The notes under the pieces are model-generated. The model was not told where the DNA came from, did not search any database, and saw only the letters and a program-made list of their open reading frames with translations. From Glandiceps talaboti (lineage: Eukaryota; Hemichordata; Enteropneusta; Spengelidae), in the NCBI RefSeq assembly GCF_964340395.1, contig NC_135563.1:3638422-3702421 (forward strand): a stretch of 64,000 nt of DNA, given 5' to 3'. Positions 2,430-61,695 of the stretch are shown one piece after another (the stretch's first letter is position 1; the number at the start of each line of letters is the position of its first letter). The position numbers were made by a program, and so were the translations under genes.

Positions 2430-3162
2430 GGGTGCCAGACAACTCGTCCCAAAAAGAACTCGTCCCAAACGAACTCGTCCCATCGCCATTTCGTCCCACC
2501 ACTAACTCGTCCCAAAACGAACTCGTCCCACCGCCATCTCGTCCCACCACTAATAATATTGTGTTTAGCTACGCGTTCAGAACACAAACATGAACTGACG
2601 CAACTTTGGCAGATTCTGTCGAGAAGGCAACGTGACTTTTCATCTGTCGAAAGTTTTGCAATTACAAACAATTACTTTATAGTTATGTTTCCGAACTTTG
2701 AAAAGAAAAAATACGATGACAGAAATTTTGACGTACGATCTATGGCGCCATTAGTCCTGTTCGCATACGGAGTTAGTCGTCCCTTTGATCCTCAAGTCAG
2801 CGTAGACCCTAGTCTATCAGCTAGCCCTCGGATGTTCTTCCGATAAAATACGACACACAGCCGAACAACGCTATCGAGGATGGAACAGGCCCTCACATGC
2901 GAACTTCGTTCGCTTATAGTTATGCGGCATCGAAAGAAAGCCCGAACGTCTAGCAGCAAGACTACGTAGACCCGTGCACCGTCGGCAAACAGGGATATGA
3001 CGCTACATCATGCGTTATGCCTATTTGCAGTTAATTATGAACCACACAGGAATATTCTTTGAATGGGACGATGTGGCAGTGGGACGAGTTGGTTGTGGGA
3101 CGATTTAGCCCGGGAACAACTTTATTGGGACGAGTTAGTTTGGGACGAAATGACCGCCCACC
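2430..3162. mobile_element. non-autonomous TIR element with CTCGTCCCA sub-repeats (family A, larger variant)
   Basis: The left end holds repeated AACTCGTCCCA units at about 2449-2545 and the right end holds their inverted form (TGGGACGAGTT and similar) at about 3063-3150. The termini GGGTGCC... and ...CCGCCCACC face each other as imperfect inverted repeats. The 8-bp sequence ACTGTGAC lies on both sides (2422-2429 and 3163-3170) and reads as a target-site duplication. The interior is CpG-richer than its surroundings and has no transposase. The terminal sub-repeats resemble those of the elements at 5270-5891 and 38313-38905. The 8-10 bp duplications would suit a Mutator-like source, but that is inference. 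Confidence 0.75.
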
Positions 3163-4533: not shown

Positions 4534-4602
4534 ATGTCCGACGAAAGTGTTGTTAATCCGGTGATAAAGTACCTTCTGTTTGCTTTTAATTTTATATTTT
4601 GG
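4534..4602 (+). CDS. TSPAN33: tetraspanin exon 1
   Basis: It encodes 23 residues: a short cytoplasmic tail (MSDESVVNPVIKY) and the first part of membrane segment 1, ending in ...NFIFW. The donor is GTAAGT at 4603. This ATG was chosen because the tail length and the VIKYLLFxFN block match the family and the next exon continues the helix in frame. Confidence 0.92.
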
Positions 4603-6287
4603 GTAAGTAAACTGTAACCATATTTCAAGTTCTTCCCACCGTACCGATCTTGCCTACATTGCATTGGTATCTCTACTGTAAGTTAACATTGACACTTGTT
4701 ACATAAGTTTTGTGGCAGTCTTGTTACAGTGCGATAATTTGACAGTAGTTTATGTTGTCAAGTATTGTAAAATAGTGAACAAGTGGAGATAAGTGCCGAC
4801 AATACGATATTTACTACATAACATAAACAATGATACATTACTCGCTGTGAAATGAATGCAGGGCGTTTATTTAACCACAGGGCGGACACAACGCCATACA
4901 ATTTTTAATGGTTTGGTTGTCCATATTAAGCGCTGTACGACCGATTTTTGAACTGAGAATTTCCAATATCCCGTTTACTTCTAATTAGAACGAGTTGTTT
5001 ACAACACAGTATTTCAGTCTTACCAGAGTTACCTGTTGCTTTGCTCAGTAAATTAATTACCATGTACAGTGTATGTAAATATGTTCTACCAGTATTTGGG
5101 CATTCTATGTTCATCTTTATGATTGTGACTAACACTTCTTAGTACAAATGTATTAGATGCGCATTAGTTCTGATTTAGAAGACATTTTATTAGCTAACAC
5201 AGTCTGAAAGTATTTAATGTATGTGGAAATGCATTGTTGTATGGCCTACCTAATGACCATTTAAAACCAGTGACGGATCAACTCGTCCCATTTCAACTTG
5301 TCCAATTGCCAATTCGCCCCAATTTCAACTCGCCCCAACTCTCTACGATATAATTTACCTGTGCATATTTGAAATTGAAGCTAGTAGTACTCAGTTTGGA
5401 ACGTCTGCGGTATCTCGTATTTCACTAACGAAGTACCACTTGTACAGTAAACACATACTACAATACTTAGTTGTGTTAACTAGGGAGAGGAGACACATCT
5501 CCAAAACCCTGTACTTGTGGAAGTTGTAAGCGTGTCATTCACTAATATTCTCCCTGGTTATTATCATTATTATTTCTTATTTGCATTGTAAACATTACGT
5601 CCTAATGTGAAAAGTGATATTCCATTACTGAGGAAAGTTGTTGTGCTAGTATAAGTTCTAGATCTAGAAAACACTTAGCCAAAACCCACACCACTTTCTG
5701 CTACGAAATGTTACATTTGCTATGCTTCAACTGGCCACTGTAGGTAAAATCATGTAAATTTGTTGGTCCCCGTACTTCGAGTCCATGTATCGTTTAGATT
5801 TATAAATGTTTACTAGTGATGTTGGGGCGAGTTGAAATTGAGGTGAGTTGAAATGGGACAAGTTGAAATTGGGATGAAGTGAATCGCAATCTTTAAAACC
5901 ACTACAACACAACATGCACAAAATACTGCAGCATCTTAGAATCATCATGTGGGCCAAGAAGTATGATCATATAACACCAATCCTTAAAGAGCTCCACTGG
6001 CTGCCAGGTCCCACTTTGCCACTTTAGGTACCCTTACATAGGATAGGAATAAGTTAATCTACATGTCAGGACAGCTCTACTTATTTCTGTTTCCTGTGAC
6101 CTAATTGTACCTAAATTTGTTTCTGGAATCTAGCTAAAATCATATACATTATGTTTTTAGCACAACTGAACTGATAAGGTTCGGTAGTGCTATAGGCATG
6201 GCAAAGTGTCTCTCTGTCTGTGTGTCTGTCTGTGTATCTGTGTGTGTCTGTGGATGTGTGTGTGTGTGTGAGTGTGTGTGTGTGTGT

Positions 6288-6370
<83 letters not shown>

Positions 6371-9300
6371 CAACTTCTAATCAAAAACCACTGGACCGAT
6401 TGCCATGATATTTGGTGGATGTATTACCTTGGGTGTCTAGTTTGGAATTGTTCAAATCAAAATGATCTTACAACCAATACGTGATTTGGGTAAATAAATG
6501 GGATTTGTGGTAAAAAACTTAAACTAAAAAACTACAGGGCAGATCAGTCTGAAATTTGGTGGGAAAATTCTTAGAGTATAGATTAAGAATTGTTCACAAC
6601 ATGGTGATCTTGAACCATAACCTAACCATCACTTGCACTGTAACCTAACCATCACTTGCACTGTAACCTAACCATCACTTGCATCGTAACCTAACCATCA
6701 CTTGCACTGTAACCTAACCATCACTTGCACTGTAACCTAACCATCACTTGCATCGTAACCTAACCATCACTTGCACCGTAACCTACCCATCACTTGCACC
6801 GTAACCTACCCATCACTTGAACCATAACCTAACCATCACTTGCACTGTAACCTAACCATCACTTGCATCGTAACCTAACCATCACTTGCACCGTAACCTT
6901 CAACCATCACTTGCACTGTAACCTACCCATCACTTGCACTGTAACCTAACCATCACTTGCACTGTAACCTACCCATCACTTGCGCCATAACCTACCCATC
7001 ACTTGCACCGTAACCTAACCATCACTTGCACCGTAACCTAACCATCACTTGCACTGTAACCTAACCATCACTTGCACTGTAACCTAACCATCACTTGCAC
7101 TGTAACCTACTCATCACTTGCACTGTAACCTAACCATCACTTGCATCGTAACCTAACCATCACTTGCACCGTAACCTAACCATCACTTGCACTGTAACCT
7201 ACCCATCACTTGCATCGTAACCTACCCATCACTTGCACCATAACCTACCCATCACTTGCACTGTAACCTAACCATCACTTGCATCGTAACCTAACCATCA
7301 CTTGCACCGTAACCTTCAACCATCACTTGCACTGTAACCTACCCATCACTTGCATCGTAACCTACCCATCACTTGCACCATAACCTACCCATCACTTGCA
7401 CTGTAACCTAACCATCACTTGCATCATAACCTAACCATCACTTGCACTGTAACCTAACCATCACTTGCACTGTAACCTAACCATCACTTGCGTCGTAATC
7501 TAACCATCACTTGCATCGTAACCTACCCATCACTTGCACTGTAACCTAACCATCACTTGCATCATAACCTAACCATCACTTGCACTGTAACCTACCCATC
7601 ACTTGCACTGTAACCTAACCATCACTTGCACTGTAACCTAACCATCACTTGCATCGTAACCTAACCATCACTTGCACTGTAACCTAACCATCACTTGCAC
7701 TGTTACCTACCCATCACTTGCACTGTAACCTACCCATCACTTGCGCCATAACCTACCCATCACTTGCACTGTAACCTAACCATCACTTGCATCATAACCT
7801 AACCATCACTTGCACTGTAACCTACCCATCACTTGCACTGTAACCTAACCATCACTTGCACTGTAACCTAACCATCACTTGCATCGTAACCTAACCATCA
7901 CTTGCACTGTAACCTAACCATCACTTGCACTGTTACCTACCCATCACTTGCACTGTAACCTAACCATCACTTGCACTGTAACCTAACCATCACTTGCACT
8001 GTAACCTACCCATCACTTGCACTGTAACCTAACCATCACTTGCACTGTAACCTAACCATCACTTGCACTGTAACCTAACCATCACTTGCACTGTAACCTA
8101 ACCATCACTTGAACCATAACCCTAACCATCACTTGCACTGTAACCTACCCATCACTTGCACTGTAACCTAACCATCACTTGCACTGTAACCTAACCATCA
8201 CTTGCACTGTAACCTACTCATCACTTGCACTGTAACCTAACCATCACTTGAACCATAACCCTAACCATCACTTGCACTGTAACCTACCCATCACTTGCAC
8301 TGTAACCTAACCATCACTTGCATCATAACCTAACCATCACTTGCACCGTAACCTAACCATCACTTGCACTGTAACCTAACCATCACTTGCACTGTAACCT
8401 AACCATCACTTGCATCGTAACCTAACCATCACTTGCACTGTAACCTAACCATCACTTGCACCGTTACCTACCCATCACTTGCACTGTAACCTACCCATCA
8501 CTTGCACTGTAACCTAACCATCACTTGAACCGTAACCTACCCATCACTTGCACTGTAACCTAACCATCACTTGCATCATAACCTAACCATCACTTGCACC
8601 GTAACCTAACCATCACTTGCACTGTAACCTAACCATCACTTGCACTGTAACCTAACCATCACTTGCATCGTAACCTACCCATCACTTGCACCATAACCTA
8701 CCCATCACTTGCACTGTAACCTAACCATCACTTGCACCGTAACCTAACCATCACTTGCGCCATAACCTAACCATCACTTGCGCCATAACCTACCATCACT
8801 TGCACTGTAACCTACCCATCACTTGCAATGCCAATGGACTAAACTCAAAACTGGTATAAGATATAATTAACTAAGTTAATATAGAAATTTGAAGATGCAA
8901 TTTATTATAATTTACATTGTATAGTAAAAATTCCAAGGAAATCCTTTTTATGTAATCAATTTTTCTAACAAAACCGGAAGAAAATTGTAATGTCATAGAA
9001 GGCATGTATTGGTATTAATTTCTAGTCTAACAATAGTTAAATCAAGGTTTTATGTAAGTGTTTTCACTTCACTAAAAAGTTGACAACTTCATCTTGTGCC
9101 ACTTTAATGTCCCTGTACCTACATTTTTTTTATCTGCAGATAATTGGTTTCCTATTACTTGGTCTTGGCATCTGGGCAACGTTAGAGAAGGGTATTGGTA
9201 ATGTAATGGATCACCTTGACATCATTACAGATCCTGCTATCGTTCTTATTGTGGTCGGCTCCGGTATCTTTATTCTTGGTTTCAGTGGCTGTGTTGGTGC

Positions 9301-12300
9301 TCTCAGAGAAAACACACTCCTCCTTATGTTTGTAAGTACATTTTATAGTATATACAAGAATTGTGAATGTAGTCCAGGCAAAGTATGTATTTTATGGACA
9401 ACTGAATATTTGGGGACACACAAGTATTAACAGGATATTCACTAGGTTTTGGAATAGGTCAAAATCAGAAAAGTAGAGGCCATCCCCGCATGGAGCAGTA
9501 ATTTAAAAATCAGTTTAGTTCGTTTTTTGCAGTAACAGGGTCTCGGCCCATGGTACATATAATTACAAAGTAAATACATGTCAATATGGACAGTGACTGA
9601 ACAGCATTTTGACAAAAATACATGTACTTAGCCTAATGGTAAATAAATATAGAAATGAATAAAGTACATGAATACAAGAAAATAGAATCAACAATATCAA
9701 ACCCTTGTTACAACTTGAAGAGAATCTCTTCATTTGAAGACCTTTAATACATACAATGATAGTTGTGAAATATTTATTTTTTGATGAAAGGACTTCAACA
9801 AGCTTATGTTCATATGTATGTGTTCTCAGTGATAGAAAGAACTCATCTCTAATATCATTATATAGAGGATATACATATAGAAAGTGGAATTCATTTTCTA
9901 CAATGTTTATACAGTACACAGTGATAAACATTTATTAGAGTTTATTGCTGTAAAGTCTGTTTTAACCATAGTACTTTAGGGATTGTTTATACAAATCGTG
10001 ATAAAACAGCTCTAATGAATATTCAGTGTGCAATTTGAATATAGTATTTCTGCTGACTCTCATGATAGCAATAAACATTTGTATGTTTAATAGTATGATA
10101 CTTTATTGCTTGTATTTACAACAGCTGTTATTGATTGCAATGTTGTAGAACTAAAACTAAAAGAGTGATGAATTTTCATTCTCACACACCAGAGCTGTTA
10201 TTTCTTCCTCGACACTGCCTATTGAAGGCATGTTTTGGATGGTGCCGTAAAAGAGGCTGTGGTTTATGACGATGTGACTTTTACACCACCAAAAAGTCTC
10301 CTAATGTTGATTATATCTTTTTATTTAATGGCACAGTAATCCTTAAAATATAGGGACACATACATGTAGCTGAGTATAGGTCTAAAAGTGACCCACATAT
10401 AAATATTGGAAGTACATTTGTAATAAGTTGTTGAAACAGTTCTTAAAATATAGGTACAAGTGCTTTGAACTACATGTACATAACTCATTTTCAGTTCTTA
10501 TACATAGACTTCTTGTTGGTTCTGACATGTATTGTACAAACTATAAAATTATAATTGTCTCTTCATTTTGTTTTATTTGTAGTTCTATTTGTTCCTTGGG
10601 CTTATTCTGATTCTTGAGGTCATTGCTGGAATAGTTGCCATTGTATTTTCACAAGAGGTAAGTTAAGTTGTGTTTGTCATTGCTGGAATAGTTGCCATTG
10701 TATTTTCACAAGAGGTAAGTTAAGTTGTGTTTGTCATTGCTGGAATAGTTGCCATTGTATTTTCACAAGAGGTAAGTTAAGTTGTGTTTGTCATTGCTGG
10801 AATAGTTGCCATTGTATTTTCACAAGAGGTAAGTTAAGTTGTGTTTGTCATTGCTGGAATAGTTGCCATTGTATTTTCACAAGAGGTAAGTTAAGTTGTG
10901 TTTGTCATTGCTGGAATAGTTGCCATTGTATTTTCACAAGAGGTAAGTTAAGTTGTGTTTGTCATTGCTGGAATAGTTGCCATTGTATTTTCACAAGAGG
11001 TAAGTTAAGTTGTGTTTGTCATTGCTGGAATAGTTGCCATTGTATTTTCACAAGAGGTAAGTTAAGTTGTGTTTGTCATTGCTGGAATAGTTGCCATTGT
11101 ATTTTCACAAGAGGTAAGTTAAGTTGTGTTTGTCATTGCTGGAATAGTTGCCATTGTATTTTCACAAGAGGTAAGTTAAGTTGTGTTTGTCATTGCTGGA
11201 ATAGTTGCCATTGTATTTTCACAAGAGGTAAGTTAAGTTGTGTTTGTCATTGCTGGAATAGTTGCCATTGTATTTTCACAAGAGGTAAGTTAAGTTGTGT
11301 TTGTCATTGCTGGAATAGTTGCCATTGTATTTTCACAAGAGGTAAGTTAAGTTGTGTTTGTCATTGCTGGAATAGTTGCCATTGTATTTTCACAAGAGGT
11401 AAGTTAAGTTGTGTTTGTCATTGCTGGAATAGTTGCCATTGTATTTTCACAAGAGGTAAGTTAAGTTGTGTTTGTCATTGCTGGAATAGTTGCCATTGTA
11501 TTTTCACAAGAGGTAAGTTAAGTTGTGTTTGTCATTGCTGGAATAGTTGCCATTGTATTTTCACAAGAGGTAAGTTAAGTTGTGTTTGTCATTGCTGGAA
11601 TAGTTGCCATTGTATTTTCACAAGAGGTAAGTTAAGTTGTGTTTGTCATTGCTGGAATAGTTGCCATTGTATTTTCACAAGAGGTAAGTTAAGTTGTGTT
11701 TGTCATTGCTGGAATAGTTGCCATTGTATTTTCACAAGAGGTAAGTTAAGTTGTGTTTGTCATTAGACATAAAAGTTTAAATCAGAGCTTCATTTAATTA
11801 AAGAAAATATTAAATGATTTTATGAATGTATTCTTTTTGAAAAGTATCATTTAAAAAAATAAACAGAAAGATCTAAATGCTCTTAAAATACATGTGTTTA
11901 ATATTTTGACTGTGTATTTCATTTGTATATCTCTTCCATACTACAATCATCAATGGCAAGCCACACCTGTCATGACTCTTGTCATAAATAAAAGCCAAGT
12001 TTTTGACAATTCTTGTCTCTTTAACAATGTTCCATGAATTATGTCACAGCAGACTTCACTTGTGTACACCATATACAGGACGTAATCATAATTATATCAC
12101 AGATAAATGAATTATGTCACAGCAGACTTCACTTGTGTACACCATATACAGGACGTAATCATAATTATATCACAGATAAATGAATTATGTCACAGCAGAC
12201 TTTACTTGTGTACACCATGTACAGGACGTAATCATAATTACATCACAGATAAATGAATTATGTCACAGCAGACTTTACTTGTGTACACCATATACAGGAC

Positions 12301-15300
12301 GTAATCATAATTACATCACAGATAAATGAATTATGTCACAGCAGACTTTACTTGTGTACACCATATACAGGACGTAATCATAATTACATCACAGATAAAT
12401 GAGTTATGTCACAGCAGACTTTACTTGTGTATGCCATATACAGGACATAATCATAATTACATCACAGATAAATGAGTTAAGTCACAGCAGACTTTACTTG
12501 TGTACACCATATACAGGACGTAATCATAATTACATCACAGATAAATGAATTAAGTCACAGCAGACTTTACTTGTACCCTACGAAGGGTCTATGGTTTCAG
12601 CTGTCAGTCATATGTGTCAAGAAACATGCACTGCTACATGTACATGTATATCAGTAGTGCTAGCGACCATATTAGATTTATGACTACTTTCAACAAATAA
12701 AAGCATAAACATACACAATTTATTGTTGTCAGTTTAATGTGTAGAATACATTTAACTCATGGGAAGGAATAAAATACCATTGTAATATAAAGCCAGACTT
12801 TATGGGATAAAGAAGTGCCATATAATCTTACACTATCATCCTATGTAGTGATTCATGGTGCCATCTTGTTTACAAGTCATTACAAACAAGCATATATGGC
12901 TGTCATTGATGATTGTGATATAGTTTGGTTATCAGTATGTAGGAGGTTGATGAAATGATGAAAGTCAAGAACCATACAGTTGATCAACCTTGACATTGAA
13001 TTAGTGGACTCCCTCTAGCAATTACAGCCTTAAAAGTTCTTTGAGCAACAATTTTGTTTTGGTGCTCCAGAATTTTAATTTTGGGAACACATTTAAAACT
13101 TAAGAGCAAAGTAAAATATTATTATATCAAATGACAAATCATTGAAATGTACTGTTTATCTTGAATAAAGATAATGAGAGTATTAATGCCACAAACAAAA
13201 AGATTCCCTGTTATCATGAAAATAATCAATATACAAGTGAGTTTCAAAATTTGTTTGTCAAATGCAGGTAAAGTTGAAATTTAACCTTTTAAATGCCAGT
13301 AAATTTAAAATGTCACCTGCTGAATGCAGGTACATATATTTGCAAATTTCACCTGCATTGGACCATTTATCACCTGTAAATGCCAATAATTACTTGCAAC
13401 TTCCTCGGCTGAAGTAGTTGTTAGCTTTTTACCCAGTTCAAGAATGAGCTTATCAACACTTCACTGAATATGTAATTAAAATTCAGTCCAGTGCTACATC
13501 ACAGTGTAACATTGGAATCATCACCTTCTACTATGCCAATATCTTGAGGGATTTTTTTAGATGCGATTTTTGGGATGTGCACTAGCCAACCTACATTTTG
13601 TACAACATACCTTAATACATAATCCACACCTCACCTTACCTTAGTATTTAGCATGAAGGATGGAAAATAAGTTAAATATACTAGTACTATAATACCACGC
13701 TATCTACGATAATTTAGTCGAAGTTTAGAGGTCACGTCAAACGTGACATCTCATCGGTAATTTCCCGATTTACATTTGTATTCGTTCACTTTATACCAAA
13801 ACTTGGCCTAACTTAGAACCTTAGGTGCATTTTCGCGATGCCCTCTCCATAGTCTATTCAACTCAATTATCGTGAATGTCCTACAAGTGTTGCCACTACG
13901 ATTGAACGATCGGCTTGTATCACCCTTTGGTAATTTTCGTTGACAAGGAGGTCACATGCCGTTACGTACGTAGTATAGAGTGCAGTGTTGTTGTTTATAT
14001 TTGCGTACATTGGACCTCATCGTGTCTAAACAGCCTACCCGTCTAGAATTTGGCATAAGGTAATCCTCAAAGCTAGAGTTGCAGGTACAAGAAAACAAAC
14101 AATGTCTGCAATATTACATGTACAGTGTAACCCCTTGCTTTGGCAGTCGGTTTACGTGTATCATCCAAGTCGGAAGAAATTGGTTGACGTGTGCGTCCAA
14201 GTATCATCATTTATACTATAGTCGGGACGACCAAACAAACCGTAAAAAGTCTTTTGATTTCAGGAACTTCTGTTTAACGTGAAAACCAAAAAGTTCGATC
14301 GCCAGAAATAATTATTCAGCAATAGTTTAGTAATTCCAAACAGATTTGTAGATGTTTTCAAGTGATAGTTGAAACATGAATGACTGTGAAAGCCGCTAAT
14401 GTGTTCATCACTGTCGTAGTGCGACAGTCAAAACATGGAAGTTGAAACAGTATCAATGACACTTTGTGTACAGAGAAGTGTTTTGATTTCCCACGTGCCA
14501 ATATCTTTGAAACCCCACTTACAGATCCCACTGGTGAAATTTACGCAAAATAATGTTGTGAAGACCACAGTTATCACAATGTATCTAGTTCCCTCAAATG
14601 GGATGGGTCAACGCAATCGATAGTAACAAACTGTATGTTATGATGAGTGTACAGTGTAAACATTGAGTTGTTTTAACTATATCTTTACAAATTAAATGTG
14701 TGTTTTGTCAACAGACTTATGACCAAGCAGATAAAGTTGTACAGAGAGCAATCGTAAGATACAGGGAGGATCTGGACTTGAGAAATTTTATTGACTTTAT
14801 ACAGATTGAAGTAAGTTATTTATTTAAAAGTATGTCTCTCCACTCTAAGATTATGTAACACAAACCTACAAGAGGTTTAATAATTAGAATTATATTGATA
14901 ACCAAATTTGGATTTGCACAAGACTAAATAATTACATATTCTGTTTGATTTTGTTGTTGATGACTGATGCATACACTTTGCTAATCATGTGACTCAACAT
15001 TTGACATCAAGTAGTTATTTAGTGTTGCAATAACATACAGTTCTAGGCTTATAATTGTCTTGTGAGGGTGAGAGTACCCAGATGCAGCATATCTTACACT
15101 GCAAAGGCCCACATCAGCCTTCATCGGAGACTTGGGGCTATGGGTGAGAGTACCCAGACACAACATATCTTACACTGCAAAGGCCCACATCAGCCTTCAT
15201 CAGTGAGAGACTTGGGGCTATGGGTGAGAGTACCCAGACACAACATATCTTACACTGCAAAGGCCCACATCAGCCTTCATCAGTGAGAGACTTGGGGCTA

Positions 15301-18300
15301 TGGGTGAGAGTACCCAGACACAACATATCTTACACTGCAAAGGCCCACATCAGCCTTCATCGGTGAGAGACTTGGGGCTATGGGTGAGAGTACCCAGACA
15401 CAACATATCTTACACTGCAGAGAATACATCATTTGATATACATGTATAGCTTGATAACACTTCTCTTTCACTCTCAGCTGGAATGTTGTGGAGGCAGAAA
15501 TGGTTTTCAAGACTGGCAAAAGAATAGGTATTTCAACTGCTCTGATACCAACCTAAGTCGTGAAAAATGTGGTGTGCCTTATTCTTGCTGTCAGCCAGAA
15601 GATGGTGGAAACAACATTATCAACACACAGTGTGGTTACGATACCACTGACAAACCCGTAAGTGCATGGTCCCCTCAGTGGCAAAAGCCACCATTCTTTT
15701 GTTATCAATAAACACCATCAAGAAAACTTTATCAAAACTAAAATTGTATTCTATCAGTAGTTTGAGTGAACAATCAAAGTCATTGATTACCATAGTAACA
15801 GATGTGTGTCACAGAGTGAAAATCTTTATATCAGTTACATATGTAAACTTTTTTCAATGTTTTTGGTGAATACTAATTAAAAGTGTGACTGAAACTATTA
15901 TAAATACATACAACCTTCTAAATACATTTATGATAGTTCCAGCCACACTTTAATTTCCAGTCGTAGGTAGTATACACAAGTTCCCTAGGTTTTTATTTAT
16001 ATTTCTCCAAAGTTCCTCTTTTTATCATAATAGCATCAAAACAGTTTTTCACATATTTTCAAGGATCAAATTTGAATTCTCTAAGTGGTCAATACCTCAT
16101 GTAATGTATATGCCCAACCCATGAGGTATTGATAACCTAGTGGTCAATACCTCATGTGATGTCTATACCCCAACCATGTTGATAACCTAGTGGTCAATAC
16201 CTCATATGATGTATATACCCCACCCATGTTGATAACCTAGTGGTCAATACCTCATGTGATGTATATACCCCACCCATGTTGATAACCTAGTGGTCAATAC
16301 CTCATGTGATGTATATACCCCACCCATGTTGATAACCTAGTGGTCAATACCTCATGTGATGTATATACCCCACCCATGTTGATAACCTAGTGGTCAATAC
16401 CTCATGTGTTGTATATACCCCACCCATGTTGATAACCTAGTGGTCAATACCTCATGTGATGTATATACCCCAACCATGTTGATAACCTAGTGGTCAATAC
16501 CTCATGTGATGTATATACCCCACCCATGTTGATAACCTAGTGGTCAATACCTCATGTGTTGTATATACCCCACCCATGTTGATAACCTCGTGGTCAATAC
16601 CTCATGTGTTGTATATACCCCAACCATGTTGATAACCTCGTGGTCAATACCTCATGTGTTGTCTATACCCCACCCATGTTGATAACCTAGTGGTCAATAC
16701 CTCATGTGATGTATATACCCCAACCATGTTGATAACCTAGTGGTCAATACCTCATGTGTTGTATATACCCCAACCATGTTGATAACCTAGTGGTCAATAC
16801 CTCATGTGATGTATATACCCCACCCATGTTGATAACCTAGTGGTCAATACCTCATGTGATGTCTATACCCCAACCATGTTGATAACCTAGTGGTCAATAC
16901 CTCATGTGTTGTATATACCCCACCCATGTTGATAACCTAGTGGTCAATACCTCATGTGATGTATATACCCCACCCATGTTGATAACCTAGTGGTCAATAC
17001 CTCATGTGTTGTATATACCCCACCCATGTTGATAACCTCGTGGTCAATACCTCATGTGTTGTATATACCCCACCCATGTTGATAACCTAGTGGTCAATAC
17101 CTCATGTGTTGTATATACCCCACCCATGTTGATAACCTCGTGGTCAATACCTCATGTGTTGTATATACCCCAACCATGTTGATAACCTCGTGGTCAATAC
17201 CTCATGTGTTGTCTATACCCCACCCATGTTGATAACCTAGTGGTCAATACCTCATGTGATGTATATACCCCAACCATGTTGATAACCTAGTGGTCAATAC
17301 CTCATGTGTTGTATATACCCCAACCATGTTGATAACCTAGTGGTCAATACCTCATGTGATGTATATACCCCACCCATGTTGATAACCTAGTGGTCAATAC
17401 CTCATGTGATGTCTATACCCCAACCATGTTGATAACCTAGTGGTCAATACCTCATGTGTTGTATATACCCCACCCATGTTGATAACCTAGTGGCCAATAC
17501 CTCATGTGATGTCTATACCCCAACCATGTTGATAACCTAGTGGTCAATACCTCATGTGATGTATATACCCCAACCATGTTGATAACGTAGTGGTCAATAC
17601 CTCATGTGATGTATATACCCCAACCATGTTGATAACCTAGTGGTCAATACCTCATGTGATGTATATACCCCAACCATGTTGATAACCTAGTGGTCAATAC
17701 CTCATGTGATGTCTATACCCCAACCATGTTGATAACCTAGTGGTCAATACCTCATGTGATGTATATACCCCACCCATGTTGATAACCTAGTGGTCAATAC
17801 CTCATGTGATGTCTATACCCCAACCATGTTGATAACCTAGTGGTCAATACCTCATGTGATGGCTATACCCCAACCATGTTGATAACCTAGTGGTCAATAC
17901 CTCATGTGTTGTATATACCCCAACCATGTTGATAACCTAGTGGTCAATACCTCATGTGATGTATATACCCCACCCATGTTGATAACCTAGTGGTCAATAC
18001 CTCATGTGATGTATATACCCCACCCATGTTGATAACCTAGTGGTCAATACCTCATGTGATGTCTATACCCCAACCATGTTGATAACCTAGTGGTCAATAC
18101 CTCATGTGATGTATATACCCCACCCATGTTGATAACCTAGTGGTCAATACCTCATGTGATGTATATACCCCACCCATGTTGATAACCTAGTGGTCAATAC
18201 CTCATGTGTTGTATATACCCCACCCATGTTGATAACCTCGTGGTCAATACCTCATGTGTTGTATATACCCCACCCATGTTGATAACCTAGTGGTCAATAC

Positions 18301-19343
18301 CTCATGTGTTTTATATACCCCACCCATGTTGATAACCTCGTGGTCAATACCTCATGTGTTGTCTATACCCCAACCATGTTGATAACCTCGTGGTCAATAC
18401 CTCATGTGTTGTCTATACCCCACCCATGTTGATAACCAGTGTTCATAAAAGCAACTTGCTCTGCTAGTATTGCTATAATAACATACAGCCTCCAATGAGC
18501 ACAATTTGATTTGTCTTGCCAACAGGCTGCAGCTGTGAGTGACCAGATCTATGTGACTGGTTGTATTGATAAATTGGTATCGTACGTCAACAGTAATGTG
18601 TACCTGATTGGAGGACTTGCAATAGGTGTAGCCATTATACAGGTAAGTCATGTACAGTAGAAGGGACACACCAACTCTTCCTGTATTAAACTTGTCCCAT
18701 TGTCAACTCACCCCATTTTTAATTGAATGCTACTGTTATTTGATGTGTTAACTTTATAAGTGTTCTGATTTGCCATGATTCAACATCTCAAAGTGTATCG
18801 GTACATTTTCACACTTAGAAGCAGGAGCTAGGTCTGCAAACTGTCAGTTCAGGGAATAGCAGTAGTTGTAGTAGAATAGGTTATTACAGTGACATGAGAT
18901 AAAGTATGACAAATCCTGGAAAGAAATGTTCAATATACAACCTCCCAGTCAAATATGCTTTTAGGTCACTTAGCAAATAAAAGAGCATTTAACAGAATGA
19001 GAAGCATACTGCAGTGAACATAAAGTTATGTACAAGGCAAAAAGGAAGCATGAAACTGGTAATTTAGTTGTTCCTTCTCTTTTAAAAATACTACCTCAAT
19101 AAACTTCAGAAGTATGAGACAATGGTTTTAAATGAAAGCATACAATGAACAAACATTCTCAGCATTTCATTTCTGAAGTGCATCCAAATCCAATTTTATA
19201 GTTATTAGTAATAACACTGTATTTGTCTATCTCAACAGGTTATTGGCATAATTCTGGCCAGAATATTACACACACAAATTGAAGAACAGAAGGAAAACTT
19301 TAACAGCAGCAAGCGACAGAACCAATACATGTCAAAGTTCTAG
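4534..19343 (+). CDS. TSPAN33: TspanC8-type tetraspanin, TSPAN33-like, seven exons
   Basis: Exons: 4534-4602, 9140-9331, 10583-10657, 14715-14810, 15478-15657, 18526-18642, 19239-19343. All introns are GT-AG and all joins are phase 0, giving 277 residues. Four membrane segments are visible: exon 1-2 junction, exon 2, exon 3, exon 6-7. The large extracellular loop has eight cysteines including the CCG signature, with the YFNC, CGVPYSCC and INTQCGYD blocks of TspanC8 proteins. CIDKLV near the loop end and AIVRYREDLDL in exon 4 point to TSPAN33 rather than TSPAN5, 14 or 17. TspanC8 tetraspanins are known to escort and regulate the protease ADAM10 in the membrane; that role here is inferred from family. 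Repeat arrays fill introns 1, 3, 4 and 5. Confidence 0.93.
5270..5891 (+). mobile_element. TIR element family A with 10-bp target duplication
   Basis: It begins GTGACGGATCAACTCGTCCC and ends GATGAAGTGAATCGCAATC. Both ends contain several inverted copies of CAACTCGCCCCAA-type sub-repeats. TTTAAAACCA flanks it on both sides (5260-5269 and 5892-5901), an exact 10-bp duplication. The body (about 5345-5810) is homologous, in inverse orientation, to the element at 38313-38905. No transposase frame is present. It lies in intron 1 of the tetraspanin gene. Confidence 0.88.
5902..6188. other. intron 1 sequence, nothing recognised
   Basis: AT-rich unique-looking intron sequence between the family A element and the GT microsatellite. 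Confidence 0.5.
6189..6367 (+). repeat. (GT)n microsatellite with a CTGT/CTGTGT head
   Basis: A GT run of about 130 bp is preceded by interrupted GTCTGT repeats. The long open frames of alternating His-Thr or Cys-Val here are artefacts of the repeat. Confidence 0.95.
6612..8829 (+). repeat. 23-bp minisatellite, about 96 copies
   Basis: The unit is CCTAACCATCACTTGCACTG plus TAA, with recurrent variants TACCC for TAACC, and ATCG, ACCG, ATCA or GCCA for ACTG. Variants are not random along the array: 7520-7730 is repeated with the same variant order at 7750-7960, exactly ten units away. The array fills about 2.2 kb of tetraspanin intron 1. Confidence 0.97.
8830..9139. other. 3' end of tetraspanin intron 1
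   Basis: AT-rich intron sequence ending in a pyrimidine tract and TATCTGCAG acceptor at 9139. Confidence 0.7.
9140..9331 (+). CDS. TSPAN33: tetraspanin exon 2
   Basis: Encodes 64 residues: the rest of membrane segment 1 (IIGFLLLGLGIW), the small extracellular loop, membrane segment 2 with the GCVGALREN motif typical of tetraspanins, and the start of segment 3. The acceptor is TATCTGCAG, the donor GTAAGT. An open frame running upstream of 9140 is intron read-through. Confidence 0.95.
9332..10582. other. tetraspanin intron 2
   Basis: About 1.25 kb of AT-rich sequence with no array, element or gene that I can recognise. Short open frames on both strands lack protein character. Confidence 0.6.
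10583..10657 (+). CDS. TSPAN33: tetraspanin exon 3 (75 nt)
   Basis: Encodes 25 residues of membrane segment 3, FYLFLGLILILEVIAGIVAI followed by VFSQE. A 75-nt exon here is the usual size in animal tetraspanins. The donor is GAG/GTAAGT. From base 10619 on, this exon is itself the first unit of a 57-bp tandem array that continues into the intron. Confidence 0.95.
10619..11764 (+). repeat. 57-bp array of exon 3 end plus splice donor, 20 copies
   Basis: Twenty full copies plus 6 nt; copy starts are 10619 + 57n. Each unit contains the last 39 nt of exon 3 (GTCATTGCTGGAATAGTTGC onward to CACAAGAG), the donor GTAAGT, and 18 nt in all of intron. I saw no difference between copies, the coding one included. 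Only the first donor serves the normal protein: reading past it gives GTA AGT TAA, a stop, and the same stop follows in every later copy. The unit has no matching acceptor, so copies cannot act as separate exons. A recent expansion, or an assembly error, would explain the perfect identity. Confidence 0.97.
12034..12571 (+). repeat. 73-bp minisatellite, about 7.4 copies
   Basis: The unit begins ATGAATTATGTCACAGCAGA and recurs at 12034, 12107, 12180, 12253, 12326, 12399, 12472 and partly at 12545. Copies differ by a few substitutions (TTCACT or TTTACT, TATATC or TACATC). It lies in tetraspanin intron 3, downstream of the 57-bp array. Confidence 0.95.
12572..14714. other. rest of tetraspanin intron 3, with a CpG-richer patch
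   Basis: Mostly AT-rich and unique. About 13690-14290 holds clearly more CpG than the surroundings, with GTCACGTCAAACGTGAC (a short CRE-like palindrome) near 13732 and ACGTACGTAG near 13965. It could be an internal promoter or an old inserted segment. No exon can be supported. The intron ends TTTTGTCAACAG. Confidence 0.45.
14715..14810 (+). CDS. TSPAN33: tetraspanin exon 4
   Basis: Encodes 32 residues at the start of the large extracellular loop, including AIVRYREDLDLRNFIDF, a block that resembles vertebrate TSPAN33 more than other tetraspanins. Acceptor CAACAG, donor GTAAGT. Confidence 0.94.
15064..15420 (+). repeat. 80-bp minisatellite, about 4.5 copies
   Basis: GGGTGAGAGTACCCAGA starts near 15066, 15142, 15222, 15302 and 15382. 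The later spacing is exactly 80 bp; the first unit is about 4 bp shorter. It ends 57 bp before exon 5 and does not include the acceptor. It is the array of intron 4. Confidence 0.95.
15478..15657 (+). CDS. TSPAN33: tetraspanin exon 5, cysteine-rich extracellular loop
   Basis: Encodes 60 residues with LECCGGRNGFQDW, YFNC, REKCGVPYSCC and INTQCGYD. It supplies seven of the eight loop cysteines; the eighth is in exon 6. Asn in NRYFNCSD is a possible glycosylation site (N-C-S). Acceptor CTCTCAG, donor GTAAGT. Confidence 0.96.
16085..18437 (+). repeat. 50-bp minisatellite, about 47 copies, with 550-bp higher-order structure
   Basis: The unit is GATAACCTAGTGGTCAATAC then CTCATGTGAT, GTATATACCC and CACCCATGTT. 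Variable sites are A/T in GTGAT, A/C in GTATATA, A/C in CCAACC and A/C in CCTAG. The block about 16541-16930 recurs with the same variant haplotype at about 17091-17480, eleven units (550 bp) away. The array fills most of tetraspanin intron 5. Confidence 0.97.
18526..18642 (+). CDS. TSPAN33: tetraspanin exon 6
   Basis: Encodes 39 residues: the end of the large loop with VTGCIDKLVSYV (eighth cysteine) and membrane segment 4 (YLIGGLAIGVAIIQ). Acceptor GCCAACAG, donor GTAAGT. Confidence 0.95.
19239..19343 (+). CDS. TSPAN33: tetraspanin exon 7 and stop
   Basis: Encodes the last 34 residues: the end of membrane segment 4 (VIGIILARIL) and a cytoplasmic tail IEEQKENFNSSKRQNQYMSK ending in Phe, then TAG. 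Acceptor CTCAACAG. Confidence 0.95.
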   Translation, partial: VIGIILARILHTQIEEQKENFNSSKRQNQYMSKF

Positions 19344-21761: not shown

Positions 21762-24593
21762 CTATTGGTGGGTTGAATTGTCAGTCTCCTGAACAGCCCT
21801 AAGTATCAAACGTCCAGTCTCTGAGCTGTCTGTATGACGGCGATAGAACCGTGTGAATGTAGATTCTGAAGTCCAGTCACCAAGTTGGAGAATCTGAGCA
21901 GTAGTTGCTCCTTGACGTATTGCTGCCGATGTTGCTGCTCCCCTAGTGCTGTGGGCTCTAAACTTATTTGTATCAATGCCTGCCCTAGCAAGTGTAGTCT
22001 TTATCCATCTTGCAATAGTCTGAGAAGTAACCTCATTAAAAGGTTTAACAAATGAAATAAATAATCTTGATGGTCGGGTTTTCCCCATTGTTACTACATA
22101 ATCTCTTAACTTGGTAGTTCTCCATATATATGTAGAAACGTAATATTTGACATCCAATGCCTTGTCACCAAAACTTGGACACTTCACCACCCGCGAAGGC
22201 CTGGTAACAGTTGATGTCTTGGTTAAACTTGGGATAACAAAAGTACATTCTCTATCCGATATATTACAGTATCTTAAGTCCAAATAACTTAAAGTCTGTC
22301 CTCTATCTGAGGAGGTTAGTGCAATTAAAGTTGCAGTCTTAAGAGTGAGTTGCTTCAGGCTTAGACTCCTTGCTGGATGCAGTGACTTTAAATAGTGCAG
22401 AACTTTCGCTACACTCCAGGTTGTTGGGTAACGTGGTAAAGGTGGCCTAACACGAAAGAAACCTTTAAATAATCTTGTAATAAGTGGATGTGATCCAACT
22501 GGTTCATTATTAATGTGCAAATGTACAGAAGAAATAGCAGATCTGTATCCATTTAAGGTACTATATGCAAGCCTATGTCTATTGAATAACCCAGTAAGGA
22601 ATTCTACTACCTGAATTACAGGACATGAAACGGGATTGGTATTCTGTTGTACACACCAGCTAGCGAAGCGCTTCCACTTGCTGTCGTAGAGTCTAGAAGT
22701 CTTGATGCAGATTGCCTTGATGAGGATCTCTGTAGCCTGCTGTGAAAGTCCAAGACCTCTGTAGTGTGACCGGAGAGTTGCCAAACGGCTAGAGGAGTCA
22801 AACTGAACTTGGGTTGATTCCCTGTGTGTGGTTCCCTGAGTAAGTCTGTGCAATCTGGCAGAAGTACCGGGTAGTTGCTGGTTAACTGTAGTAACATTGG
22901 ATACCACGGTTTCGTTTTCCATACTGGTGCTACAAACAGCGTTCTTGCTCTGTCCTGTTGTATTTTCCTTAGACATTTCAGTATTAGTAGATGTGGTGGA
23001 AACATGTACAACTCTTTCTCTGCCCATGAGAGAGAGAATGCGTCGACTGCAAAAGCTTTGGGGTCTAACTTCCATGACACATACAGGGGAAGTTGAGCTG
23101 TATTTCGACTTGCGAATAAGTCTATTTCTGGTAGGTGAAACCTGCTGCAAACCTGTCTGAAAAGGTCTGGTTTGAGTTGAAAGTCGTGTTGATCTGTAAA
23201 TATCCTGGACTGATGGTCTGCTAATGTATTGTCTATTCCTGGTAAGTATTCTACTGCAAGGGTAATATTTTGAGTTTCGCACAATTGCCAAACTTGTAGG
23301 GCTACTGCACATAGTTCCCTGGATCTGACTCCCCCCTGGTGATTTAGATAAGCCACTGCTGACGTGTTGTCTAGCTGTACTGTTACGGAGAGGTCTGACC
23401 TGTTTTGGACAAATGTCTGTATGGATAGAAGAGCGGCCTTTATTTCCAGAATGTTGATATGTAATTCCTTTTCCTGTAAAGTCCAACGTCCCTGTGTTGC
23501 CTGATGACCACATACTGCTCCCCAACCACTGAGTGAGGCATCTGCCTGGATAGTTAAGTCTGGAGGTGGAGGATGTATCAGTCGACCGTTGTGTGTGGAG
23601 GCCTGATTTATCCACCACTGAAGATCGGACTTCGACTCCTTTGAAAGGAGTATTGGGATTTCCCAAGAGACTTCTGGAAAAACCTTGTGAACTAACTGAC
23701 GTTGTAGACTTCGATAATGGCATGCAGCAATGGCCATGGAACCCCTTGCGTTTTCTATTAATCCCAACATTCTTGCTAATTGACGCAAAGAGACTGACTG
23801 TCTGTTTAAGAGGTGGGTTGCAAATCCGATAATGGTTTGTAGCTTGTCCTGAGGTAATAAGACTGTCATCAGCTCTGTGTTGTAGGTACGACCTAGATGG
23901 GTGAGTATCTGTGTTGGGATTAGATGTGATTTTTTCAAGTTGGGTATGAACCCGAGTCGTTGGAAGAGACCTAGAAGGTAGTTGTTGTTTCTCTGACACA
24001 GTTCTCTGGTTTCTGCTACATTGATTATATCGTCTATGAAACTGCTGCAAAGGATTCCCCGTGAACGAGCATGAGCAAGTGGGATTTTCATAACCTTTGT
24101 GAATAGCCTTGGTGCTGAAGTGAGCCCGAATGGTAGGCAAGTGTATTGGTAGCGCTGGTCTATCCACTGGAAACAAAGATATTTTTGATGATCTGCATGA
24201 ATGGGAATCATGAAGTATGCATCTGTGAGATCTATTGACGTCATGAAATAACCCTGGCTTAACAACTGTTCTATGACAGGATGGCTCTCCATTTTGAAAG
24301 ATATCTTTTTGATGTGTCTGTTCAGTTCTTTGAGGTCTATGATTACCCTGTAATCCCCTGATGGTTTTGGAACAGTGAAAATTCTGGAAACAAACTGACC
24401 TGGTTGATGTTTGACTGGAACTATGGCCTGCTTGTGAAGTAAATTTTCTATTTCTGTCTGAATGATTTGATACTGCTTGCTGGATGTTGGGTTGGTAATT
24501 GGCTGGATTGACTGAACTGGAGTTGATGTTAACTGAAGTTTGTAACCTTGAATGACCTTTGAAATCCAAGTGTTTTGTGTAATTGTTTTCCAA
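21762..24593 (-). CDS. DIRS tyrosine recombinase frame (943-codon open frame; YR domain in C-terminal third)
   Basis: The recombinase domain occupies roughly residues 610-943. The catalytic set is complete: Arg764 in SSDRGQT, His881-x-x-Arg884 in HSTRGAA, Trp907 in LGDW and Tyr917 in FTRFYRR. Such recombinases insert the circular cDNA without a target duplication. Before the domain, the frame stays open for some 600 codons opposite the RT/RNase H frame in another phase. That part is Ser/Thr/Gln/Arg rich and unlike any domain I know. The true start is therefore probably internal, or the protein is reached by frameshift or re-initiation. Confidence 0.88.
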   Translation of the reverse strand: MENNYTKHLDFKGHSRLQTSVNINSSSVNPANYQPNIQQAVSNHSDRNRKFTSQAGHSSSQTSTRSVCFQNFHCSKTIRGLQGNHRPQRTEQTHQKDIFQNGEPSCHRTVVKPGLFHDVNRSHRCILHDSHSCRSSKISLFPVDRPALPIHLPTIRAHFSTKAIHKGYENPTCSCSFTGNPLQQFHRRYNQCSRNQRTVSEKQQLPSRSLPTTRVHTQLEKITSNPNTDTHPSRSYLQHRADDSLITSGQATNHYRICNPPLKQTVSLFASISKNVGINRKRKGFHGHCCMPLSKSTTSVSSQGFSRSLLGNPNTPFKGVEVRSSVVDKSGLHTQRSTDTSSTSRLNYPGRCLTQWLGSSMWSSGNTGTLDFTGKGITYQHSGNKGRSSIHTDICPKQVRPLRNSTARQHVSSGLSKSPGGSQIQGTMCSSPTSLAIVRNSKYYPCSRILTRNRQYISRPSVQDIYRSTRLSTQTRPFQTGLQQVSPTRNRLIRKSKYSSTSPVCVMEVRPQSFCSRRILSLMGRERVVHVSTTSTNTEMSKENTTGQSKNAVCSTSMENETVVSNVTTVNQQLPGTSARLHRLTQGTTHRESTQVQFDSSSRLATLRSHYRGLGLSQQATEILIKAICIKTSRLYDSKWKRFASWCVQQNTNPVSCPVIQVVEFLTGLFNRHRLAYSTLNGYRSAISSVHLHINNEPVGSHPLITRLFKGFFRVRPPLPRYPTTWSVAKVLHYLKSLHPARSLSLKQLTLKTATLIALTSSDRGQTLSYLDLRYCNISDRECTFVIPSLTKTSTVTRPSRVVKCPSFGDKALDVKYYVSTYIWRTTKLRDYVVTMGKTRPSRLFISFVKPFNEVTSQTIARWIKTTLARAGIDTNKFRAHSTRGAATSAAIRQGATTAQILQLGDWTSESTFTRFYRRHTDSSETGRLILRAVQETDNSTHQ

Positions 24594-24844
24594 GTATTTA
24601 GGAAATACTGGAGTCTGCCTGCAACTGGTATTGATGACTTTACAAGTTCACTGCTTATTCTGGTTGGAAGAGGTGTAATTACCTTTTCCTTGTGGTCTGC
24701 CTGAGCCCTTTTGGTACTTCTTCTTATTGTCTTGGTTGTAGTTGGTGTTTCGTTGATAGTTTTTTCCACCCTTGTAATATCCAGACTGGTTTCCGGTTTG
24801 TTTGACTGACCTGTTGTCATTTCTGGAAACGATACGAAAAGCAT
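22616..24844 (-). CDS. DIRS reverse transcriptase / RNase H
   Basis: 742 residues. RT blocks run in order: GDYRVIIDLKELN (about 163-175), IDLTDAY (204-210), CLPFGLTSAP (236-245), then the catalytic FIDD box (269-272), a DIRS-style variant of YxDD. The RNase H set is D435 (IQADAS), E467 (INILEIK), D492 (QLDNTS) and D543 (LADHQS). After RNase H comes a conserved tail (IDLFASRN ... FPPHLLI) that matches the region often annotated as methyltransferase-like in DIRS proteins; here it looks degenerate, so that label is uncertain. The frame overlaps the end of the gag-like ORF by about 200 nt and the recombinase frame almost throughout. Confidence 0.94.
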   Translation of the reverse strand: MLFVSFPEMTTGQSNKPETSLDITRVEKTINETPTTTKTIRRSTKRAQADHKEKVITPLPTRISSELVKSSIPVAGRLQYFLNTWKTITQNTWISKVIQGYKLQLTSTPVQSIQPITNPTSSKQYQIIQTEIENLLHKQAIVPVKHQPGQFVSRIFTVPKPSGDYRVIIDLKELNRHIKKISFKMESHPVIEQLLSQGYFMTSIDLTDAYFMIPIHADHQKYLCFQWIDQRYQYTCLPFGLTSAPRLFTKVMKIPLAHARSRGILCSSFIDDIINVAETRELCQRNNNYLLGLFQRLGFIPNLKKSHLIPTQILTHLGRTYNTELMTVLLPQDKLQTIIGFATHLLNRQSVSLRQLARMLGLIENARGSMAIAACHYRSLQRQLVHKVFPEVSWEIPILLSKESKSDLQWWINQASTHNGRLIHPPPPDLTIQADASLSGWGAVCGHQATQGRWTLQEKELHINILEIKAALLSIQTFVQNRSDLSVTVQLDNTSAVAYLNHQGGVRSRELCAVALQVWQLCETQNITLAVEYLPGIDNTLADHQSRIFTDQHDFQLKPDLFRQVCSRFHLPEIDLFASRNTAQLPLYVSWKLDPKAFAVDAFSLSWAEKELYMFPPHLLILKCLRKIQQDRARTLFVAPVWKTKPWYPMLLQLTSNYPVLLPDCTDLLREPHTGNQPKFSLTPLAVWQLSGHTTEVLDFHSRLQRSSSRQSASRLLDSTTASGSASLAGVYNRIPIPFHVL

Positions 24845-26033
24845 TGACTGACTTCTTGGAGTCGTTTATGGCCTTTACCAAGTTTCCACCAAAAAATCCC
24901 TGTGATGTCGGCTTGGCATCTTGTAATAAATCTTTGTATTCACTACGAAAGAATGGCTTCAATCTTGCCTGACGAACCTCAGCTAGCGCGTAGCTCGCAG
25001 TAGTCATAAGATGGATAGCATCTCCAAGTGCCTCTCTAATTGTTGGTACGTGCTGTACCGGGTCAAATTCTGGAGAAATAATGGTTTCCAGGGCTTGAAG
25101 AACTGGGCGAATAGACAAGTTAAAGTTCTGATGAACCTTGTAATACGGACGGTCATGGTTACGATAGCTTGACTTGCTAGATTTGATTAGATTCTGTACG
25201 GAAGACGGCAATTCCTGTGCCTTGAAGTATGGCTCGAATTGGTCTGGTACCGTGTACTTCTCTTTTAACTGTTGAACTACAGAATACGATAAGGGACGGT
25301 CTGCTCTTCTAGAGAACCATTCGGCCGTGGAGGCGTCCATGTTCCAACCCGGAACAGCAGCGTGATAGTCAGGAACTTGAGCATACGCAGACGTGGATTC
25401 GTCAAATATAGGCTCGTTCCAGGATGAAACTGTTATAGGCAGAGAAGACGCAACTTCAGAATTACCAGACTTGTCAGAATCACTCACTTCGGACCCGGAA
25501 TTATCATACTCGGTTTGTACAATACGTCTCTGCTTTGTAGGAATTGGTGCACTTACCCTCGAAGTTTTGTGTTTCCTACCAATACTCAAACTCGGTAACC
25601 CTGCCTGTTGAGTGGGCGTACAACTACAAGATGGCGGCCCGCATGTGGAAGCATGTGTTATGCTAATACCGTCGACCTGGTCTTGGTCAATACGTGTACG
25701 TGGTCCGCCCGGTGCGCTATCCGACCGCTGCTGGGCTAGAAGTTGAGCGACTTGCGTCGCTATTTGAAGAATTGAATCTGGAGCAGAACTAGTCGAAGGA
25801 AAGTCTTCAATAGCTGTAGGTAAAACTTCTTCGGTTTCTGAAACCTCGGAGACGATACTGTTGGTAACGGTATTATTGTCTTCATCAGGGTTTATAGCAA
25901 AAGCCACTGGCGTTGAGTCCCGTCTTACGTTCGGCTGAGTAACAGATACGGACGACTTACAAGACTTCTTGCCTTTTTTCGACTTGCCTTTCCCTGACAT
26001 ATTTGTAAATGAGGAAGGAACGACCGGTAACAC
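24648..26033 (-). CDS. DIRS ORF1, gag-like protein
   Basis: 461 residues from 26033; a second Met at 26000 (MSGKGKSKKGKK) gives a better basic N-terminus and may be the real start. The N-terminal third is Ser/Thr and acid rich. The centre has AVPGWNMDASTAEWFSRR, and the C-terminus is Gly/Asn/Lys/Gln rich (KGGKNYQRNTNYNQDNKKK), fitting nucleic-acid binding. No CCHC knuckle is present. It is the first frame of the element and overlaps RT at its end. The function as a structural protein is inferred from position. Confidence 0.8.
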   Translation of the reverse strand: MLPVVPSSFTNMSGKGKSKKGKKSCKSSVSVTQPNVRRDSTPVAFAINPDEDNNTVTNSIVSEVSETEEVLPTAIEDFPSTSSAPDSILQIATQVAQLLAQQRSDSAPGGPRTRIDQDQVDGISITHASTCGPPSCSCTPTQQAGLPSLSIGRKHKTSRVSAPIPTKQRRIVQTEYDNSGSEVSDSDKSGNSEVASSLPITVSSWNEPIFDESTSAYAQVPDYHAAVPGWNMDASTAEWFSRRADRPLSYSVVQQLKEKYTVPDQFEPYFKAQELPSSVQNLIKSSKSSYRNHDRPYYKVHQNFNLSIRPVLQALETIISPEFDPVQHVPTIREALGDAIHLMTTASYALAEVRQARLKPFFRSEYKDLLQDAKPTSQGFFGGNLVKAINDSKKSVNAFRIVSRNDNRSVKQTGNQSGYYKGGKNYQRNTNYNQDNKKKYQKGSGRPQGKGNYTSSNQNKQ

Positions 26034-26061
26034 TGTCTGAGATGTTACCGTTACAGCGTGA

Positions 26062-26158
26062 AGAAAGGTAATGACGTAAGGTAGCCTTTTCAGGCTTTTA
26101 TAGTACTATGGAAGGACGACACCTAGCGATGAATTAGGGAAAGCTACTGTAGTTACTG
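26062..26158 (-). repeat. DIRS inverted terminal repeat, right
   Basis: Reverse complement of 21250-21346 with almost no mismatch. It lies upstream of ORF1 and so probably contains the element's promoter. 26159-26179 is the right-end-specific extension. Confidence 0.93.

Positions 26159-35809: not shown

Positions 35810-61695
<25,886 letters not shown>

Follow-up and report, generated by a model that had tools for sequence, protein, structure and literature searches.

Minisatellites that supply splice donors are known from the human genes ABCA7 and IFI6 (6-16), the repeats of the latter being short. In intron 18 of ABCA7, the 25-bp unit of a variable-number tandem repeat (VNTR) starts at the donor GT of exon 18, its units vary slightly, and its alleles span 298–10678 bp and show disease association (De Roeck et al. 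2018, PMC5954066). Retention of a single unit through a later donor amounts to 2 ± 1% independent of array length, and increasing length is accompanied by more exon 19 skipping and lower expression (PMC5954066). The IFI6 minisatellite provides multiple splice donors, and its downstream units are used (Turri et al. 1995, via PMC4526556). Papers on splice-junction arrays of hemichordates were not found in the literature searched.

The window analysed here is a stretch of 64,000 nucleotides of DNA from Glandiceps talaboti, an acorn worm (enteropneust hemichordate), in which the last 39 nt of a tetraspanin exon 3, its donor GTAAGT, and 12 intron nt recur as a 57-bp unit (Table 1). This array is probably a recent minisatellite (VNTR) derived from the exon 3/intron 3 junction of a working gene. 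It would be a by-product that the gene tolerates, since recognition across the exon would favour unit 1, and any influence on dose would be mild and depend on array length. As in ABCA7, the first unit bears the working donor, the later units supply further intronic donors, and splicing at donor 2 would lengthen the exon by one unit and introduce a premature stop. The ABCA7 unit, however, is intronic, measures 25 bp, and starts from the GT, whereas the Glandiceps unit measures 57 bp, includes 39 coding nt, and is present in perfect copies. Several IFI6 units enter stable isoforms, whereas the annotated Glandiceps product shows only unit 1. The locus also resembles the intron gains at fission yeast AGGT repeats and the potato RdRp gene in that tandem copies hold a splice junction or AGGT, and the potato duplication spans an intron-exon boundary, as does a second array in our window, at an NMNAT gene (PMC4974935). 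Those duplications gave rise to a new intron (PMC4974935), whereas in Glandiceps an existing intron was lengthened and no new one is indicated. The functional donor of exon 3 lies inside the Glandiceps array, and each further unit retains an intact donor (20 AGGTAAGT in register); because of the ABCA7 and IFI6 precedents, it belongs with the known splice-donor VNTRs. A disease-relevant human repeat type (ABCA7) is thereby extended to an invertebrate deuterostome.

The host gene and the structure of the array

The seven exons of the host gene are all open, in phase, divisible by three in length, and delimited by GT-AG ends. Their spliced model is letter-identical to the public Glandiceps talaboti protein P0001, annotated as 'tetraspanin-33-like', which fits splicing at the unit-1 donor (exon 3 of 75 nt), with everything from there to exon 4 removed as one long intron. 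The preliminary description of this DNA, which had recognised a tetraspanin, numbered the exon as the third, and named unit 1 as the coding copy, is borne out by the gene model and this identity. The four-helix tetraspanin domain (PF00335) scores 185.7 bits against a cut-off of 32.1, and the large extracellular loop contains eight cysteines (147, 148, 165, 175, 181, 182, 196, and 217), which we take to be the mark of TspanC8 proteins. The nearest protein from another species, at 74%, is that of Ptychodera flava (among the 120 of 248 matches listed), and tetraspanin-15 is the best solved relative by sequence.

Table 1. Positions of the gene, array, and repeat features within the window
Feature	Position	Strand	Remarks
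Tetraspanin-33-like coding span	4534..19343	+	Seven exons, 277 aa; gene model
Tetraspanin exon 1	4534-4602	+	Gene model
Tetraspanin exon 2	9140-9331	+	Gene model
Tetraspanin exon 3	10583-10657	+	75 nt, phase 0; encodes the end of transmembrane segment 3; gene model, Pfam PF00335
57-bp minisatellite	10619..11764	+	20 perfect units + 6 bp GTCATT; 1146 bp
GTCATT at unit start	10619..10624	+	Direct repeat partner of 11759-11764
Intron 3	10658..14714	+	4057 nt; houses units 2-20; gene model
Unit-1 donor GTAAGT	10658..10663	+	Donor of annotated protein
19 further identical donors	10715..11746	+	57-bp steps; first at 10715, last starts 11741
GTCATT past last unit	11759..11764	+	Direct repeat partner of 10619-10624
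Tetraspanin exon 4	14715-14810	+	96 nt, in frame; gene model
Tetraspanin exon 5	15478-15657	+	Gene model
Tetraspanin exon 6	18526-18642	+	Gene model
Tetraspanin exon 7	19239-19343	+	Gene model
83-bp minisatellite	59638..60195	+	6.7 units; intron end + 3' acceptor + 52 nt from the start of NMNAT exon 3
NMNAT exon 3	60144..60450	+	Acceptor = last of six copies
16-bp repeat clusters	2440-2553, 3064-3148, 5278-5338, 5822-5874, 38331-38399, 38834-38878		

A direct count places the exact 57-bp periodicity over the whole array, with 20 exact copies and neighbouring copies matching at 1089/1089 positions. The copy number first reported is confirmed by these figures, and the reported make-up of the unit also stands; of the original span, 10583..11764, the end is correct, whereas 10583 is the start of the exon and the array proper begins at 10619. 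The string AGGTAAGT occurs 20 times within 10501-11900 and once more on the + strand of the window, where base composition leads us to expect about 1.1 per 64 kb. One frame has no stop in any of the units (10618-11766, 382 aa), because 57 is a multiple of three and one open unit repeats. It differs from the exon 3 frame, this 382-aa frame gave no sign of being coding, and we rejected the array as a coding sequence.

Strength and predicted products of the later donors

The duplex with U1 has the same energy, -10.7, for every array donor. Among the 1165 GT sites of the coding span (4534-19343), only three outside the array pair with U1 as strongly or more so, namely the exon 6 donor, the exon 1 donor, and a cryptic intron-1 site, and the original statement that 20 strong U1-type donors stand in a row is therefore true. 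Local folding assigns the array donors unpaired probabilities of 0.008–0.053 versus 0.000–0.021 for six real donors. Because of these values, the copies do not appear to be hidden, and concealment of the extra donors was rejected as an explanation, the array copies being no more closed than the real sites.

Translation beyond unit 1 reads V-S-stop. Exon 3 would grow to 132 nt with donor 2 and to 189 nt with donor 3, and all 19 extended versions contain an in-frame stop (TAA), as had been claimed for every later donor. A truncated Glandiceps isoform was not found (3 hits among 44 candidates), which is weak evidence because decay products are seldom annotated.

Choice among identical donors

Because its flanking introns measure 1251 nt upstream and 4057 nt downstream, exon 3 would be recognised by exon definition, and the donor nearest to the upstream acceptor, that of unit 1, would win; units 2-20 would then be removed as intron. 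The switch from intron to exon definition occurs at introns of about 200–250 nt, and genome-wide the closest sites pair across the exon where introns are long (PMC9225289). When two identical strong CAG/guaagu donors competed with flanking introns of 365 nt, the upstream donor was used exclusively in 5/5 minigenes (PMC9225289). The Glandiceps locus resembles this system in having identical strong donors behind one acceptor, long introns, and, in the annotated protein, use of the first donor, but the engineered construct held a pair of sites, whereas a natural array of twenty is present here (Carranza et al. 2022, PMC9225289). The donor proximity rule was tested with two competing sites, versus twenty in our array. 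Classical in vitro work, as summarised in the same paper (PMC9225289), favoured the intron-nearest donor, a preference that would point here to unit 20 and thus against our explanation.

Published work favours use of the first donor, with a little leakage. Transcripts spliced at later donors would contain a stop and be liable to decay, and skipping of the next exon may become more frequent as the array lengthens, as with human ABCA7. By analogy, we predict for the Glandiceps gene that later donors are used at a low level and that exon 4, which is 96 nt long and in frame, is skipped to an extent that depends on array length.

A mirror array at the NMNAT gene

The 83-bp array has the opposite polarity, repeating an acceptor and the start of its exon. 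Six exact acceptor copies follow one another in 83-bp steps (exon starts 59729, 59812, 59895, 59978, 60061, and 60144); the first five would each meet a stop codon, whereas use of the last (60144) yields a protein that aligns gap-free to human NMNAT3 across the exon 3 junction. Here too the exon-nearest copy is in use, in all three annotated Glandiceps NMNAT isoforms among the 120 of 900 matches listed. For acceptors under exon definition, PMC9225289 describes a reduced upstream preference and does not state a reversal. The NMNAT case is therefore not fully explained by the proximity rule, because the upstream preference of acceptors is only reduced. That minisatellites normally avoid exon edges, as the preliminary description held, was an interpretation, against which stand the ABCA7 VNTR and the IFI6 minisatellite as human precedents and, in the same window, this second array (59638-60195) spanning an exon edge.

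Two of the 19 modelled junctions lie in arrays, in two genes, a minus-strand gene at 32-36 kb being outside the 19. With one junction-spanning array given, the other six arrays would include a further one with a probability of 0.10, 0.13, and 0.19 for 20, 27, and 40 assumed junctions, respectively, and the enrichment is suggestive and not significant. A broader proposal, which we offer tentatively and hold to be rather doubtful, is that splice-junction minisatellites of donor and acceptor type form a regular class in this genome, kept because exon definition protects the copy next to the exon even when 5 to 19 identical sites compete with it, with array length tuning gene dose. If this were true, each splice-junction array would be a natural competition assay. 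Arrays of this type can escape short-read annotation, which calls for caution. The 20 identical donors and, nearby, six identical acceptors offer a test, in native genes, of the choice among equal sites. Proximity across the intron predicts donor 20 and acceptor 1, proximity across the exon predicts donor 1 and acceptor 6, and a first-transcribed-first-used rule predicts donor 1 and acceptor 1, so that the tetraspanin and NMNAT arrays as a pair tell the three models apart.

The NMNAT gene shows a further duplication. A degenerate duplicate of NMNAT exon 1 (36077-36178), with a GTATGT donor, lies some 1 kb downstream (about 37062-37175). Besides the two modelled junctions in arrays, the exon 1 donor is thereby a third with an extra copy, a single degenerate one with 7 mismatches in 40. 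The GxFxPxTxxH-like stretch is altered in the duplicate exon, which is possibly an alternative or a dead first exon.

Origin and age of the tetraspanin array

The unit starts with GTCATT, and the same six bases follow the last unit, an overhang of at least 6 bases having a chance of about 0.002 if bases are independent. This direct repeat bounding the unit suggests a recent microhomology-mediated expansion. Slippage or recombination between two GTCATT copies 57 bp apart may have duplicated the junction, which could then have been enlarged by unequal exchange or slippage. The copies are perfect, which therefore suggests that the array is recent, and it is probably length-variable. Five minisatellites cover 6613/14810 bp of the tetraspanin gene (45%), and the eight longer-period arrays catalogued in the window cover 12.8% of it. 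Without selection, about 0.23 junction-spanning units would be expected (summed over the gene's five arrays). Because minisatellites fill such a share of the gene, it is not far-fetched that one should meet a junction. Elsewhere in the gene, the minisatellites at 15066-15419 and 16084-18445 stop 58 and 80 bases short of the exon 5 and exon 6 acceptors, respectively.

Perfect identity over 1146 bp, whereas the other seven catalogued arrays are all imperfect, is also what an assembly or library artefact might leave, the true locus then having one or a few units and the 20 perfect copies stemming from sequencing or gap filling. We regard such an artefact as unlikely. The unit ends carry a clean 6-bp repeat of the kind that a biological duplication leaves, the window contains no N, and the sequence sits on a 24.25-Mb contig. 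Short-read assemblies, moreover, usually collapse such arrays instead of expanding them, which counts against an artefact.

Regulatory and recursive-splicing readings

The array might instead be a functional control element, acting as a U1 decoy, protecting intron 3 from early polyadenylation, or serving as a length-dependent brake through stop-containing transcripts. The 20 donors are among the strongest U1-pairing sites of the coding span, the extra copies are predicted to be as accessible as the real ones (0.008–0.053 versus 0.000–0.021), and ABCA7 expression drops with VNTR length (PMC5954066). The 223 nt past the array contain four AATAAA/ATTAAA hexamers, a number reached by only 0.26% of 12632 same-sized intron windows, a post hoc figure in that the window was picked after the hexamers had been noticed. 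The overall hexamer density of intron 3, however, is 2.22 per kb, near that of intron 2 (2.4) and under that of intron 6 (5.03), the other tetraspanin introns ranging from 0 to 5.03 per kb. The absence of a truncated Glandiceps isoform (3 hits among 44 candidates) also speaks against a control element, though decay products are rarely annotated, and the perfect copies point to a young array, not to a long-kept element. An effect of the array on polyadenylation is possible in view of the hexamers clustered just downstream, but a control function as a whole seems improbable to us, and we judge the array to be a tolerated by-product.

Each unit could also be a step of recursive splicing, or the array an incipient intron, since AG directly precedes GTAAGT and each unit removed would restore a donor. 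Tandem AGGT duplications create introns in fission yeast and ATP2A1 (PMC4974935). The exact abutment of AG and GTAAGT in the unit has the geometry of a zero-length exon. The junction AGs score 4.7 and 5.5. The higher score ranks at the 95th percentile among 3191 AG sites and exceeds those of 4/9 real acceptors scored leave-one-out; the matrix was built on a tiny set of nine acceptors, includes one (61537) not used by Glandiceps isoforms, and cannot by itself decide the matter or exclude an acceptor. Recursive splice sites have a strong pyrimidine tract ending in YAG immediately upstream of GTAAGT. The Glandiceps junction, in contrast, reads TTTTCACAAGAG followed by GTAAGT, with G at -3; its AG is thus preceded by G, GAG being a poor acceptor context, a second AG lies 2 nt upstream, and the pyrimidine tract is broken. 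Direct splicing from unit 1 to exon 4 would, in addition, yield the identical protein. Judged by this context, recursive splicing is unlikely, and we give the reading as a whole very little credence. The idea that the array lies in a decayed copy with an intact tetraspanin-33 gene elsewhere, raised in the preliminary description, found no support and is rejected on the strength of an intact gene, with seven open, in-phase exons and standard GT-AG ends, whose spliced model is the public protein letter for letter, the sole other Glandiceps-named protein among the 120 of 248 matches listed being a tetraspanin-5-like one (47%).

Other features of the window

On the minus strand, 21762-26105 contains long open frames suggestive of a retroelement that encodes reverse transcriptase and a tyrosine recombinase, presumably DIRS/Ngaro-like as judged by eye from its motifs; its 485-aa frame at 24648-26105 (minus strand) is without a Pfam match. 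Also on the minus strand, 33644-35809 is open for 721 aa and encodes a GTP-binding domain (PF01926); we take the product to resemble the mitochondrial GTPase NOA1. A dispersed 16-bp repeat of the CAACTCGTCCCA / CAACTCGCCCCA type forms short tandem clusters in both orientations (Table 1).
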